Assembly: GCA_021801825.1 (NCBI GenBank)
Contig: JAJYXK010000014.1
Span: forward strand, 1-43,490
DNA length: 43,490 nucleotides
Origin: a bacterium
Lineage (GTDB): Bacteria > Patescibacteriota > Minisyncoccia > UBA6257 > JAGOQP01
Direction: 5' to 3'
In this document: in pieces, positions 4,960-35,817 of the stretch
How the letters are laid out: every line of letters begins with the position of its first letter
Position numbering within the stretch: the stretch's first letter is position 1
Notes under the pieces: model-generated
Seen by the model: only the letters and a program-made list of their open reading frames with translations
Told to the model about the DNA's origin: nothing
Database searches by the model: none
Program-made: the position numbers and the translations under genes

Positions 4960-5973
4960 TCAAATAAAAAGGTTCATTTGAGGAGGTTCTTTTCGCTCTC
5001 CTCTGATTTCTATTCTTCCCTGGCGATAGTATGGACCAGAAGGGATCAGAAATTTACAGGTTTCTTTTATTGGGCACATACCACATGTTTTTTCATATGT
5101 GGCCGTATTCTTTTCTGTCCAACTAGATTTTTTAGAAACTCCCACGTGAGTTTTTCTCCCGTGGTAAATTCCCACTTCGCTTGAATTTCCTGGGTGTAAT
5201 CTACACCAACCCCTAGACATGAGCCAAAGTGCGTTACATAGATCTAGGGGATTTGTTCTTGTTTCCCTACAGAATTCAAGAGAAATTTCTCGTGCTGCTG
5301 CAAGATATTCTTGTGTGAGTAAATTCCCACACCCGCTGTCTGTTGTTAATATCTCGTGCGCAGTTATGATTCTGAGCGCGTGGAAATCAATAGGTACAGG
5401 AAAATGGAATGAGTCTGCGAAGCCTCCTTCTACTAGAAAGTAGATGAGCATACTAACCATCTTCTCCCTGAACCCAAAAAATCCATGAGGGTGAAGCGGG
5501 TTTATTTTTCCACTATTAAGAATCCTCTCCTTAATCTCTGAATACTCAACCCCTTGTAATAATAAGGCCGGATTCCCGTCCCAGAACGTATACATCTTTT
5601 GGAAATTTTTCATCCAGAATTTTGGGACGATGGTTGCATTATATTTTAGTCCGACTTCTCTCAAACGTTTTGAGAATTGTTCTAAAAGTCCCTTCTCATC
5701 ATCCAAGAAGAATTCCGGATCAAAATAGTGAGGATATTTTTCATAAAAAGTGGTAAGCGCTTTTATTGCTGCGTCGCTCTTAATCCCTCCCCGCATATAA
5801 TAACAGGAGCAGAAAAGAAATCGTGCGTGTTCTACCGAACCTCTCGTAATAGAAGTTGGCAAGAAAATTTGTGGGAGCTCTCCGGTGTTATAAGGAGGCT
5901 CCTTTTTTAGAAACATTTCTACGAGTTTTTTAAAAACTTCGTAGGCGCGTTCTTTGTTCTTATAAATTTTCAA
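4960..5973 (-). CDS. Putative HhH-GPD/EndoIII-like protein with Fe-S cluster loop
   Basis: TTG start after AAAGGAGGTACC; VPIDFHALRI; ALWLMSRGWC...CGMCPIKETCKF (C-x2-C-x5-C). Confidence 0.5.
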   Translation of the reverse strand: MKIYKNKERAYEVFKKLVEMFLKKEPPYNTGELPQIFLPTSITRGSVEHARFLFCSCYYMRGGIKSDAAIKALTTFYEKYPHYFDPEFFLDDEKGLLEQFSKRLREVGLKYNATIVPKFWMKNFQKMYTFWDGNPALLLQGVEYSEIKERILNSGKINPLHPHGFFGFREKMVSMLIYFLVEGGFADSFHFPVPIDFHALRIITAHEILTTDSGCGNLLTQEYLAAAREISLEFCRETRTNPLDLCNALWLMSRGWCRLHPGNSSEVGIYHGRKTHVGVSKKSSWTEKNTATYEKTCGMCPIKETCKFLIPSGPYYRQGRIEIRGERKEPPQMNLFI

Positions 5974-6075
5974 GGTACCTCCTTTTGTGTGCGCTTAACA
6001 TATATCTTTTGTGTATATGTGTCAATGTTTTTGTTTTTCCTTCACATTCTTCTTATTTTCGGCTATCTTGTAAGA

Positions 6076-9000
6076 ATGCTTCGGAATATCAAATCCTTTA
6101 ATCTTCCTGAAATAGAAGAAAAAGTGCTTGCGCTATGGAAAGAGCGGGGTATTTTTAAAAAATCTATAACTCCCCAAAAAGGGAAAAAATCAAAACAATT
6201 TAATTTTTGGGAAGGTCCTCCGACGGCGAATGGTCGCCCGGGAATCCACCACGTCTTAGCGCGTGTATATAAAGATGTGTTTGTTCGTTATAAAACCATG
6301 CAGGGTTTTATTGTACCTCGTAAAGCGGGGTGGGACACGCATGGGCTTCCGGTTGAGCTGCAGGTTGAAAAGCAACTAGAACTTTCTTCTAAAAAAGATA
6401 TTGAGGCGTATGGTATCTCTGCCTTTAATCAGAAATGTAAGGAATCGGCGGGCGTGTATACATCAGAATTTGAAAAGCTAACTGAGCGTATTGGATTTTG
6501 GTTGGATATGGAGAATCCGTATGTGACCTATCATAACGACTATATAGAATCGTTGTGGTGGATTATTCAGCAAATTTATCGAAAGGGGTTGTTGTATGAA
6601 GGACATAAAATTGTTCCCTGGTGTCCCCGTTGTGGTACCGCGCTTTCTTCTCATGAAATTGCCCAAGGATATAAAACGGTAAAAGACACTTCGGTATATG
6701 TGAAGTTTCATCTTAGACCGAATCAGAAATTTGGAGCATATGCTACTAAAGACTCTGCATATATCATCTCGTGGACAACTACGCCTTGGACATTACCGGG
6801 GAATGTAGCTCTCGCAGTAGGGAAAAGTATTTCCTATGACGCTATTCGTGTTGATGGTGGCTCCGAGTTGTATATTCTCGCTTCTGATTTAGTACGTACC
6901 GTTTTTAAAGATGCTCAAATTGAAACGGTGCATAAGAATATAAAAGGAAAAGATTTAGTAGGGCTTTCGTATACACCACTATTTTCTGTTCCTGTTTTTG
7001 AGAAATCAGATACTGCATATAAAGTGTATGATGCTGATTTTGTAACCACAACCGATGGAACGGGTGTAGTGCATACCGCGGTTATGTATGGAGAGGATGA
7101 TTATGAATTGGGTAAACGAATAGGGCTTCCACAGCATCATACGGTTGATGAAGCGGGTCTTTTTACGCGTGACATCCCTGAGCTTGTGGGGAAGTTTGTG
7201 AAGGATGAGCAAACGGAAATAGAAATATTTAAGTTGCTGCATGCGCGAAATGCATTATTAAAAAAGGAAAAGTATGAACACGAATATCCATTTTGTTGGC
7301 GCTGTGGTACACCCCTGCTCTACTATGCGAGAACTTCGTGGTTTGTTGAAATGACAAGACTAAAGAAACAATTACTTACTTCAAATGAGACCGCGAATTG
7401 GATTCCAGGACATATTAAACAGGGGCGTTTTGGAGAGTGGTTAAAAGAAGTAAAGGATTGGAATTTTTCTCGTGAACGATATTGGGGCACTCCGCTTCCC
7501 GTGTGGCGTTGTACGCAGTGTTCGCATACACGCGTTATTGGGTCAAAAGAAGAATTGATTGCGACTCAACCAAAACATGACACGCGGTTTATTCTTATGC
7601 GCCATGGAGGATCTCTTCATAATGTGAAACGTGTTACGAGCGGAGATCTAAAAAAAAGCATTCAATATCCGCTGACTAAAAAAGGAGAATTGGAAGTCCG
7701 GCGCACGGCTAAAAAGTTAATCCCTAAAAAAATAGATATTATTATTTGCTCAGATATTCACCGCGCCCATCAAACCGCTCAAATCGTTTCAGATATTATT
7801 GGTGCGAAGGTCGTTGTTGATAAACGATTACGAGAAATTTCTTTTGGAGAATTTGAGGGACAATCCGTTGATAAATATAATGCATTGTTTGCAGATTATG
7901 AGTCTAAATTTACCAAAGCTCCCGAGGGAGGGGAGACACTTTTTGATGTGGCAAACCGGGTCAATGAATTTACGCAAGATGCTCTTAATGTGCACAAAGG
8001 TAAAACGGTACTTGTCGTTAGTCACGAAGATACTTTATGGATGCTTGATGCGGTACTCTCTGGACGAAGCCAAGAGGAAAGTATTGCTTTAAAGAAAAAT
8101 GCGGATGGTGGTTTTATAAAGACGGCTCACACTATGTCTCGGGAGTATATTTCATTTCCACGTAATGAACATGGATTGGGAGATTTGCATCGTCCGTATA
8201 TTGACGACATACGAATAGATTGTGCCTCGTGTCATACTCCTATGAAACGGGTAAAAGAAGTGGTGGATGTGTGGTTTGATTCTGGCGCTATGCCATATGC
8301 ACAGGCGCATTTTCCATTTGCGCAAACTCTAGGTTCTGCAGATAACTTTACTAAGGCTATCAAAAAAATAAATTTTCCTGCTGATTATATTTCTGAAGCA
8401 GTAGATCAGACACGTGGATGGTTCTATACGCTTTTAGCTATTGCCACGGTGCTGGGCCTTCCTACACCATATAAGAATGTACTTTGTTTAGGACTTATCC
8501 ATGATAAGAATGGGCAAAAAATGTCTAAATCAAAAGGCAACATTGTTGATCCGTGGATGTTAATACAAAAGTATGGAGTAGATTCTATCCGATGGTATTT
8601 TTATACTGTGAATGCTCCTGGAGATGCAAAGAATTTTGATGAAGAGGATGTGGGGAAAGCATTCCGTCGCACGCTGATGGTTATGTATAACTCATTTGCA
8701 TTTTTGCAAATGTATGGAGTCACCAAGCGAAATATTTCTCAAACACCGGTTGCGACCAATATATTGGATCGCTGGATTCTTGCGCGGCTTGCTTTGTTAA
8801 CTCGCGAAATGACATCGGTTATGGATATGTATGATATTACTAAGGCAACCGCAGCGGTAGAATTGTTCATAGATGATTTGTCTCGTTGGTATATTCGTCG
8901 TTCTCGTCGTCGATTCCAAAAACCAGAACAACGAAAAGATGTGGAGGTTGCATCACAAGTGCTTGCTTACGTGTTGTTGCAGTTTTCTAAGTTACTCGCT

Positions 9001-9636
9001 CCGTTCACTCCGTTTTTTGCTGAGAGTATGTATCAATCTTTGCGAAAGGATTATGTGTTTGCTCAAAAAGATTCGGTGCATCTAGAATCCTATCCTATTT
9101 TTAAGAGCAAGGCTTCTGATGAGGGGATTGTGTCGGTCATGGCGTGGGCGCGTGATATTGCGAGTGAAGTTCTTGCAAAACGAGCCGAATTACAAATTAA
9201 AGTTCGTCAACCACTCGCGCAGCTCACACTTTCGGGCAAAAAGCCAAAGGGATCTTTTGTCTCAGATATTCTTGAAATTATTCGTGATGAGGTGAATGTA
9301 AAGGAGATTATTTTTTCTTCAGAGATTGCAGGTGGAGAAAAATTTGTACTTGATACTACTATTACACCAGAATTAAAAACCGAAGGGTTGTTACGGGAAC
9401 TTACTCGTGCGGTTCAAGAATTACGACAAGACGCACGTTATGTGCCCAAAGACAGTATTATCCTTGCAATCTCAAGTACTTCTGATATTGAAGCGTTAGT
9501 ACGAACCCATGAAGCATTTATTAAAAAAGAAGTAGGCGCGCGTGTTTTGACTATTGGGAAAATGGAAAAATTTGACGTAGAGATAGATACCAAGCTGGAT
9601 GGCAAGCGATTATGGATGGGAGCGAGAAAGAAATAA
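6076..9636 (+). CDS. ileS: Isoleucyl-tRNA synthetase with embedded histidine-phosphatase domain
   Basis: GPPTANGRPGIHHVLARVYKD (HIGH), KMSKSKGN; insert with FILMRHGG...SDIHRAHQTA...VVSHEDT; start placed at MLRNIKSFNLPEIEEKV. Confidence 0.95.
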   Translation: MLRNIKSFNLPEIEEKVLALWKERGIFKKSITPQKGKKSKQFNFWEGPPTANGRPGIHHVLARVYKDVFVRYKTMQGFIVPRKAGWDTHGLPVELQVEKQLELSSKKDIEAYGISAFNQKCKESAGVYTSEFEKLTERIGFWLDMENPYVTYHNDYIESLWWIIQQIYRKGLLYEGHKIVPWCPRCGTALSSHEIAQGYKTVKDTSVYVKFHLRPNQKFGAYATKDSAYIISWTTTPWTLPGNVALAVGKSISYDAIRVDGGSELYILASDLVRTVFKDAQIETVHKNIKGKDLVGLSYTPLFSVPVFEKSDTAYKVYDADFVTTTDGTGVVHTAVMYGEDDYELGKRIGLPQHHTVDEAGLFTRDIPELVGKFVKDEQTEIEIFKLLHARNALLKKEKYEHEYPFCWRCGTPLLYYARTSWFVEMTRLKKQLLTSNETANWIPGHIKQGRFGEWLKEVKDWNFSRERYWGTPLPVWRCTQCSHTRVIGSKEELIATQPKHDTRFILMRHGGSLHNVKRVTSGDLKKSIQYPLTKKGELEVRRTAKKLIPKKIDIIICSDIHRAHQTAQIVSDIIGAKVVVDKRLREISFGEFEGQSVDKYNALFADYESKFTKAPEGGETLFDVANRVNEFTQDALNVHKGKTVLVVSHEDTLWMLDAVLSGRSQEESIALKKNADGGFIKTAHTMSREYISFPRNEHGLGDLHRPYIDDIRIDCASCHTPMKRVKEVVDVWFDSGAMPYAQAHFPFAQTLGSADNFTKAIKKINFPADYISEAVDQTRGWFYTLLAIATVLGLPTPYKNVLCLGLIHDKNGQKMSKSKGNIVDPWMLIQKYGVDSIRWYFYTVNAPGDAKNFDEEDVGKAFRRTLMVMYNSFAFLQMYGVTKRNISQTPVATNILDRWILARLALLTREMTSVMDMYDITKATAAVELFIDDLSRWYIRRSRRRFQKPEQRKDVEVASQVLAYVLLQFSKLLAPFTPFFAESMYQSLRKDYVFAQKDSVHLESYPIFKSKASDEGIVSVMAWARDIASEVLAKRAELQIKVRQPLAQLTLSGKKPKGSFVSDILEIIRDEVNVKEIIFSSEIAGGEKFVLDTTITPELKTEGLLRELTRAVQELRQDARYVPKDSIILAISSTSDIEALVRTHEAFIKKEVGARVLTIGKMEKFDVEIDTKLDGKRLWMGARKK

Positions 9637-33875: not shown

Positions 33876-33905
33876 AAAAATATCCCGTGAGGGATATTTT
33901 TATAT
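33876..33905. terminator. Bidirectional terminator
   Basis: AAAAATATCCC-gtga-GGGATATTTTT. Confidence 0.85.
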
Positions 33906-34439
33906 TTGTATCTGTATAATTTTCTTTCTTGGTCTGTTTTTTAGTATGTATGCTATGCTTTTATTTTTTATAATCGCGATACACATCAATATAAATACAT
34001 CATGTGATACTACTAGTATATTTTTGTTTCTCTTATTTTTCTGTATTTGGCGAATGAATTTCTGCGCGCGCTTTTGTACTTGTAGAAAAGTCTCTCCTCC
34101 CTTATGCGCCCTTCTCTCAATTGGTTTTTGTTTGTATATTTTCCAGTCAATTTCCGATTCTTTTTTCCCCTCTGCAATACCCGCGTTTCTTTCTTGAATT
34201 AATGCATTTTCTAAAACACCTACGTTTAATTTTTTTGATAGAATGGTTGCCGTATCCAGAGCTCTCTTTAAGGGACTTGTGACAATAACATCTGGTAGTA
34301 TGTTGTTATTTTTTAGTTCTTGCGCAAGCTCTCTCGCTTCTTCTTTTCCCTCATTGGTCAAATGACCGTTGAGTGATCCAAGTATAATATCTCGTTTTCC
34401 TTCCCGAGTTTCTCCGTGCCGAACGAAAATTATTCGCAT
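33900..34439 (-). CDS. Histidine phosphatase family protein
   Basis: MRIIFVRHGETREGKRD, TSPLKRALDTATIL, ILVVSHDVFI. Confidence 0.9.
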   Translation of the reverse strand: MRIIFVRHGETREGKRDIILGSLNGHLTNEGKEEARELAQELKNNNILPDVIVTSPLKRALDTATILSKKLNVGVLENALIQERNAGIAEGKKESEIDWKIYKQKPIERRAHKGGETFLQVQKRAQKFIRQIQKNKRNKNILVVSHDVFILMCIAIIKNKSIAYILKNRPRKKIIQIQI

Positions 34440-34443
34440 ATAT

Positions 34444-35013
34444 TTATCCCTCTAAGCTTTTGATAATATCTAAGACAATAGGTAACTCTCTTACGTTATC
34501 TTCTCCACCAATGTGCCCGTAATTTTCTAGGAGGTGGGTGTGTGCACCGAGATTTTTTTCAAAAATTGTTTTGTTTTCTAGCGGTACATAAGGATCATTA
34601 TCAGAATATATATAATGAAAACTTTCTGCGTGTGTTTTTACTTTCTTAAAATCAATAGGATCTTCTAACCAAGGACGAGCAATTTCTTTTTCCTCTTCTG
34701 TTTCTAATTCGTTGAGCGTGAACCATCCCGCTACGCACACAACCGCGCGAATTTTTATATCGTGGGGGAGTGTTTCTAAATATCGTAAAATAGTTTGGCA
34801 TCCGATACTATGACCTACCAGAATCGTTTCTTGTGTTGGTGTGATATTTTTATCAAGAAATGGTACCCATTCTCGTATGGCTGGGGTATCTGGATTTGGC
34901 ATTTCTAAAATATGCACTTTATGTCCCTGTTTTTCTAATTTTTGTTTTAACCACGGAAACCACCCTTCTTCTGGTGATCCTCCCCATCCGTGGATGATGT
35001 AGATATGGCTCAT
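34444..35013 (-). CDS. RBBP9/YdeN-like alpha/beta hydrolase
   Basis: MSHIYIIHGWGGSPEEGWFPWLKQKLE, LVGHSIGCQTILRYLE. Confidence 0.88.
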   Translation of the reverse strand: MSHIYIIHGWGGSPEEGWFPWLKQKLEKQGHKVHILEMPNPDTPAIREWVPFLDKNITPTQETILVGHSIGCQTILRYLETLPHDIKIRAVVCVAGWFTLNELETEEEKEIARPWLEDPIDFKKVKTHAESFHYIYSDNDPYVPLENKTIFEKNLGAHTHLLENYGHIGGEDNVRELPIVLDIIKSLEG

Positions 35014-35027
35014 AAATTTGATTTTAT

Positions 35028-35729
35028 CTATTCAACAAATGTGTATTTCTTTCTTTTTTCCTTTTTCACGTGCTGTATTAATTCTTCTGCAAGTTTTCTC
35101 TTCCTTAATAAGGTTGGAAGATTCTTTCTATAATAAATCCACCTAAGAAGTTGGATTGATTCGTGTTTACCGAATTTAACTCCCCAGATAGGGACGCAGT
35201 TTTCATTTTTCGGTTTTGTGCAAACAGCAACCCCACTTACCGGTGATAATTCTTTTATTTTCTTATGTAGCCACAGAATGTGATTTTTACTCGCAGATAT
35301 AAATCTTACAAAAACACGATAGTTTGTATATACCCTCCCTTTATATGTTTCGCGTCTATCAATGTAAGTTTGAATGTTCCCATCACCGTCTAAGTGTCCG
35401 CGCAAGAAATCTTTGAAGAATTTGTTTGGAATTTCTATTGCTCCGATGGTGTATGTTTTTGCTGGAAACAATCCTATTTTTAGGAGCCAATTGTAGAACT
35501 GAATATTTCCAAACTGAACTCTGTATCCTCTATCATTTTCAGTTGAGCCTATTTTATTAGTCAGATTTAAACAGTGCTTAAAGGTTTCTAGGAGCTGGGT
35601 GTCAGATGACCTTATACTAATATGTCTTCCGTCTTTTGATAAATTTCCATCGGTTACCAAAAGACCAATAATATATGCAAGTTTTGAAGACCACACAAAA
35701 TTCTTTTTAGGTAATTTTGTTTTTGGCAT
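35028..35729 (-). CDS. LAGLIDADG-type homing endonuclease-like protein
   Basis: LAYIIGLLVTDGNLSKDG and FLRGHLDGDGNIQ motifs; start 4 nt after the tRNA-Leu 3' end. Confidence 0.85.
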   Translation of the reverse strand: MPKTKLPKKNFVWSSKLAYIIGLLVTDGNLSKDGRHISIRSSDTQLLETFKHCLNLTNKIGSTENDRGYRVQFGNIQFYNWLLKIGLFPAKTYTIGAIEIPNKFFKDFLRGHLDGDGNIQTYIDRRETYKGRVYTNYRVFVRFISASKNHILWLHKKIKELSPVSGVAVCTKPKNENCVPIWGVKFGKHESIQLLRWIYYRKNLPTLLRKRKLAEELIQHVKKEKRKKYTFVE

Positions 35730-35733
35730 ACTG

Positions 35734-35817
35734 TGCCCGAGGCCGGACTCGAACCGGCAAGGCCTTGCGACCATAACATTTTGAGTGTTACGTGGTTACC
35801 AATTTCACCACCCGGGC
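35734..35817 (-). tRNA. tRNA-Leu(CAA)
   Basis: GCCCGGG...TAACA-CTCAAAA-TGTTA...GGTTCGAGTCC...CTCGGGCA; class II variable arm; CCA not encoded. Confidence 0.95.

Follow-up and report, generated by a model that had tools for sequence, protein, structure and literature searches.

Why an isoleucyl-tRNA synthetase (IleRS) should carry a second enzyme within its own chain is the question raised by the ileS gene of a 43,490-nt contig from the Patescibacteria, a large assemblage of very small, uncultured bacteria; the whole contig is called the window below. An earlier note, made from the sequence, had proposed that this synthetase contains a full histidine phosphatase, and the present analysis addressed the domain itself, its distribution among relatives and what it may do there.

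The ileS gene and its inserted domain

The features of the gene to which the text refers are as follows.

6076–9636, + strand: ileS, IleRS with a histidine phosphatase insert, assigned to type 2 by its structural model (1186 aa from the ATG at 6076; open frame from 5911)
6241–6252, + strand: GIHH, swapped class-I signature (GXHH for HXGH), read from the sequence
7510–7521, + strand: CTQC, first cysteine pair of the second zinc ribbon, directly upstream of the insert (conserved alignment columns)
7561–8178, + strand: inserted segment, about residues 525–730 (alignment with the empty-site IleRS L093–L106)
7588–8088, + strand: histidine phosphatase branch 1 core, PF00300, about residues 534–700 (profile, fold and stand-alone model)
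7600–7605, + strand: R538-H539, the RH of RHG, with H539 as predicted phospho-acceptor (78/78 relatives; 205/205 aligned single inserts)
7762–7764, + strand: R592, predicted catalytic (78/78 relatives; 206/207 single inserts)
7834–7836, + strand: E616, predicted general acid (E in 77/78 relatives, D in one; in the wider set E in 195 and D in 12 of 207)
8023–8025, + strand: H679 (VSHED), predicted catalytic (78/78 relatives; 206/206 aligned)
8221–8232, + strand: CASC, second cysteine pair of the second zinc ribbon, directly downstream of the insert (conserved alignment columns)
8518–8532, + strand: KMSKS loop of IleRS

The ileS open reading frame (5989–9636, + strand, 1215 codons) runs uninterrupted through the insert, as the earlier note had described, and its start is probably the ATG at 6076. 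The TIGR00392 ileS model matched the protein with 874 bits (cut-off 621), the match being split into two stretches that flank the insert, and the Pfam matches were PF00133, PF08264 and PF00300. The best solved fold matches of a full-length AlphaFold2 model (50 homologues; mean pLDDT 91.8, pTM 0.85) were Priestia megaterium IleRS2 and yeast IleRS (8c8w/8c8v/8wnd) at 27–33% identity, with IleRS1 structures ranking below the IleRS2 and eukaryotic ones, and by this structural closeness of the model the window IleRS is placed in type 2. It shares with the known type-2 enzymes (P. megaterium IleRS2 8c8v and yeast 8wnd; PMC10485003) the IleRS core, the C-terminal DUF5915 region and the GXHH signature, whereas they lack the ~200-aa phosphatase that sits in its second zinc ribbon. 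The GXHH form has been described in a subset of type-2 IleRS and tied to mupirocin hyper-resistance, in a paper where Patescibacteria go unmentioned (PMC10485003); it was the majority form among the insert-bearing IleRS ORFs examined (129 of 213, duplicates included). The statement that both the HIGH and KMSKS motifs are intact thus held for KMSKS, but in place of HIGH the window has the swapped GIHH. The editing-site motifs of CP1 are intact as well (TTTPWTLP at residue 263 and GTG.VH...GEDD at residue 357) and conserved in the alignment of relatives, and on this ground the phosphatase was rejected as a replacement for lost editing. Divergently from ileS lies a 337-aa ORF (4960–5973, − strand) with a cysteine-rich C-terminus (CGMCPIKETCKF), for which a Pfam search gave no match.

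The PF00300 (His_Phos_1) profile matched residues 535–697 with 116.2 bits against a gathering score of 21.7 (E 1.9e-33). Modelled alone by AlphaFold2 (pLDDT 96.9), the insert is predicted to adopt the alpha/beta phosphoglycerate-mutase fold; a Foldseek search with this model gave TM values of about 0.75–0.79 to the PhoE (1h2e) and Rv2419c structures, and the closest solved chains by sequence were PhoE and phosphoserine phosphatase 1. The proposed full phosphatase domain, which a failure to match PF00300 was to have put in doubt, was therefore borne out by both profile and predicted structure. Its fold, its RHG...R...E...H set and its size are those of histidine phosphatase branch 1 (Bacillus stearothermophilus PhoE 1ebb/1h2e, phosphoserine phosphatase 1, CobC). 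Unlike the PhoE/CobC-type phosphatases, however, it is embedded in a synthetase, many members of its family bear an SHGDPLW motif, and it scored below the cut-off of every named NCBIfam equivalog considered (dPGM, CobC, PspA, GpmB, SixA), the best scores being 93.8 bits for dPGM_arch (cut-off 225) and 83.4 bits for CobC (cut-off 162.9).

The RHG, second Arg and second His listed in the earlier note are all present (R538, H539, R592, H679), and S588, E649 and R657 are also invariant across 78 inserts. Among 207 single inserts, one R592S was the sole departure beyond E-to-D replacement or truncation. This retention of the catalytic set over about 200 homologues rules out a dead passenger domain and means that the phosphatase, which the note had called possibly catalytic, is very probably active, as predicted from sequence; the chemistry is presumably hydrolysis of a phosphomonoester through a phospho-histidine, as in the rest of the family. 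Between the window and the locus L045, pN was 0.127 and pS 0.609 for the insert, similar to the remaining protein, a comparison that is only rough because dS is near saturation. Judged by such sequence comparisons, purifying selection acts on the insert, though its non-catalytic remainder varies freely.

Insertion site, distribution and gene pairs

In insert-less IleRS (L093–L106), the empty site reads CxxC...VIGSxxEL...DLHRPYID...CxxC, and alignment with it places the insert in the second zinc ribbon, within the loop that links its two cysteine pairs. The same region contained 230 of the 241 mapped IleRS insertions (some genomes being counted twice). A PF00300 search of 100 related genomes, mostly metagenome-assembled and tallied from frames plus retrieved loci, located the domain within IleRS in 80 of them, from 27 families of one order, and G001 and G002, two genomes of the same genus, have the homologous fusion. 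In a phylum sample, 27 genomes belonged to the same class: 21 were fused, in three a phosphatase gene preceded ileS, and three had neither form. Named records of the fusion came from Harrison-, Colwell-, Lipton-, Wolfe-, Azam-, Nealson-, Niyogi-, Ryan-, Vogel- and Uhrbacteria (Parcubacteria, many studies). An assembly artefact, the other objection that had been raised against the join, was rejected, since dozens of separately assembled genomes show the same join. One family (f26), part of another (f17) and the genomes G083, G091 and G019 have an insert-less IleRS and no close relative of the insert elsewhere in the genome; some lineages thus manage without the phosphatase, which is therefore not essential everywhere. 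Two further observations concern the synthetases themselves. The 1.2-Mb genome G016 encodes two different IleRS (L071 and L073), both with the insert, and in three genomes placed in the same order (G085, G071 and G055; L104–L106), TGA is a sense codon in ileS, with 12–19 in-frame TGA, and the IleRS is without the insert.

At nine loci (L149, L150, L224, L238, L244, L251, L254, L258 and L262), an insert-less ileS is directly preceded by a phosphatase gene on the same strand, with about −10 to +15 nt between the phosphatase stop and the ileS ATG, ATGA overlaps among them; L151 has such a pair with a wider gap. With the insert profile, the paired phosphatases scored 160–232 bits; ordinary stand-alone phosphatases reached at most 131 bits, three intermediates at 137–156 bits excepted. 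Nearly all of the paired proteins are nested among the inserts in the phosphatase tree, and the IleRS tree shows the paired state at five or more places (both are FastTree trees with moderate support, moderate to weak at deep nodes). The best 80 named public loci comprised 73 fusions and seven gene pairs, with none unlinked, a biased frequency because these loci were chosen by their similarity to the insert. The recurrent linkage of phosphatase and IleRS, fused or paired, constitutes a strong Rosetta-stone signal, and this link is clade-wide and repeatedly re-invented. Families f12 and f23 encode a close relative of the insert (176–218 bits) elsewhere in the genome; in two of the four f12 genomes inspected, it adjoins a sugar-nucleotide-type transferase (identified by eye), and so the insert family may serve other substrates as well. 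The contig of L262 is titled candidate division WOR-3, and its IleRS groups with L258 and with the patescibacterial L149; this label may reflect misbinning or transfer.

The window also has the separate phosphatase gene that had been reported at 33900–34439 (− strand; PF00300, E 8.6e-35). As a source of the insert it was rejected, since it scored 112 against 234 bits and the tree placed it apart from the insert family; by these sequence relationships it is a distant paralogue. It adjoins a serine hydrolase (PF06821) gene, the two spanning 33900–35013 (− strand), and an ORF with a LAGLIDADG_3 domain (35028–35774, − strand; E 2.6e-8) lies beside the pair. The same phosphatase and serine hydrolase families are inserted together in the valyl-tRNA synthetase (ValRS) of L292 and L293.

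Further insertion sites and comparable proteins

Histidine phosphatases occupy four sites in IleRS, namely the second-ribbon loop and three others. The IleRS of family f106 mostly has two, one in the ribbon loop and one just past the second cysteine pair; the 1572-aa IleRS of L145 (1667–6382) has three at three sites; and in L148 and L303 a single phosphatase lies close to where the anticodon domain joins. Eleven synthetases identified as ValRS by NCBIfam also carry a phosphatase (L004, L006, L010, L160, L163, L282–L285, L292 and L293), either in the ribbon region or in a loop matching IleRS position ~780, and several of these copies group in the tree with ordinary stand-alone phosphatases, outside the main insert family. 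Other enzyme domains accompany them: a HAD domain and a serine hydrolase in the ValRS of L293 (327–4157), a serine hydrolase in that of L292 (195–4037), the two proteins being 1277–1281 aa long, and a GNAT acetyltransferase, at a different site from the phosphatase, in the IleRS of L148 (2138–6490, − strand). All of the synthetase fusions seen were in IleRS or ValRS.

Synthetases usually acquire binding or editing domains. Both folds combined here, and the general habit of synthetases of gaining domains, are already known, but the literature searched had no description of an IleRS or ValRS with a built-in histidine phosphatase, nor of the linkage between the two genes, although automatic databases may list the architecture. 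In ileS_w_GNAT (NF040702), an enzyme domain likewise lies within IleRS, but there it is an acetyltransferase and here a phosphatase; the window protein scored 315 bits against the NF040702 cut-off of 1999, and Pfam and NCBIfam profiles found no GNAT domain in it. The bifunctional RNase H/acid phosphatase (PRK07238) similarly joins a CobC-like phosphatase to a nucleic-acid enzyme, but its partner differs and its fusion is C-terminal, whereas that of the window is a loop insertion. Domain gain by a patescibacterial synthetase has been reported for the CPR TyrRS with a PheRS B2 domain, in a paper in which IleRS is not discussed (PMC5370408); that domain is a terminal binding domain, unlike the loop enzyme of the window.

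Possible roles of the phosphatase

From the recurrent fusion and pairing, we infer an active, tethered phosphatase that is coupled to Ile/Val aminoacylation, and we lean towards a bifunctional enzyme in which a type-2 IleRS and a competent phosphatase in its second-ribbon loop act jointly on a diffusible phosphomonoester. A working type-2 IleRS would hold a PhoE/CobC-like histidine phosphatase in this loop, catalysis would proceed through a phospho-histidine intermediate on H539 with E616 as the general acid, and the phosphatase would have been retained for acting together with the synthetase. It would dephosphorylate a diffusible phosphomonoester, one either generated at Ile/Val aminoacylation or disturbing it, candidates being the AMP that activation and editing release or an inhibitor of IleRS/ValRS that is phosphorylated and mimics the adenylate; that the substrate is nucleotide-like is our best guess, though one rather unlikely to be right. 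Because there are four sites in IleRS, several in ValRS and neighbours translationally coupled to ileS, proximity and equal dose would matter more than one exact channel.

The coupling is not needed if a general housekeeping phosphatase has simply been packed, for co-expression, into a permissive loop or operon of a highly expressed essential gene in reduced genomes. The acceptance of GNAT, HAD and serine hydrolase domains by the same synthetases fits such packing, since their loops may be mere permissive hot spots; so do the several permissive sites and the fusions of histidine phosphatases in this phylum to other proteins (L286, L287 and L289), whose partners were judged by eye from sequence to be an MFS-like transporter, a membrane protein of VTT/DedA-like type and a kinase-like domain. 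However, the synthetase fusions are confined to IleRS and ValRS, the fused and paired forms have the same partner and recur in at least five lineages, and inserting a domain into an essential enzyme carries more risk than placing its gene in an operon, so we regard packing as fairly unlikely. Branch-1 histidine phosphatases include protein phosphatases, and HipA kinases are known synthetase-phosphorylating toxins. A phosphatase that undoes the phosphorylation of a macromolecule bound at the synthetase, whether a tRNA phosphate or an IleRS/ValRS site that a kinase or toxin had modified, would profit from tethering if its acceptor lies in that same complex. Nevertheless, four insertion sites make a single fixed acceptor geometry unlikely, the nearest solved relatives of the insert act on small molecules, and HipA had no match in any of the 31 genomes searched, which disfavours reversal of HipA action in particular and leaves a macromolecular substrate improbable.

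Hydrolysis of (p)ppGpp, by which Ile/Val supply would be coupled to the stringent response, can draw on the RelA/SpoT encoded by G000 and by 22 of the 30 genomes related to it, but seven near-complete genomes that carry the fusion (G005, G014, G015, G020, G022, G027 and G028) lack a RelA/SpoT match, and the alarmone that the earlier note had listed beside AMP, aminoacyl-AMP and tRNA as possible substrates is accordingly disfavoured, to the point of being scarcely credible. Hardly better is the prospect that the phosphatase stands in for a missing metabolic enzyme. Its best NCBIfam match is to the archaeal dPGM (~94 bits against 225) and soluble pyrophosphatases are rare among the relatives; yet a Metalloenzyme-superfamily match is present in 30 of the 31 genomes, with frames of iPGM size (~515–530 aa) in most relatives, the fusion is kept in all 12 of the 31 genomes without an enolase match, and a membrane pyrophosphatase was found in 23 of the 31, so that both a phosphoglycerate mutase substitute and a pyrophosphatase substitute were rejected as candidates and the stand-in is very improbable. 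These exclusions by gene distribution leave a nucleotide-like phosphomonoester or an inhibitor as the likelier substrate.

A wider form of the joint action favoured above, offered as speculation that is probably wrong in its full extent, is that patescibacterial IleRS and ValRS serve as platforms of built-in small-molecule enzymes, histidine phosphatase foremost but also GNAT, HAD and serine hydrolase, which would render harmless, at the synthetase, a by-product or inhibitor that is either phosphorylated or an aminoacyl-nucleotide. It would be a previously undescribed, cis-encoded housecleaning or self-protection of translation. The occasional GNAT and serine-hydrolase companions recall, by analogy only, microcin C immunity, in which a synthetase inhibitor of aminoacyl-nucleotide type is broken down by an acetyltransferase, peptidases and a phosphoramidase (PMC9239234).

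The retention of a phosphatase in an essential synthetase throughout a class, with repeated splitting and independent re-insertion in IleRS and ValRS, points to unrecognised phosphate chemistry at Ile/Val aminoacylation, and with the natural variants at hand (fused, paired, empty and multi-copy), purified proteins would allow a direct test.
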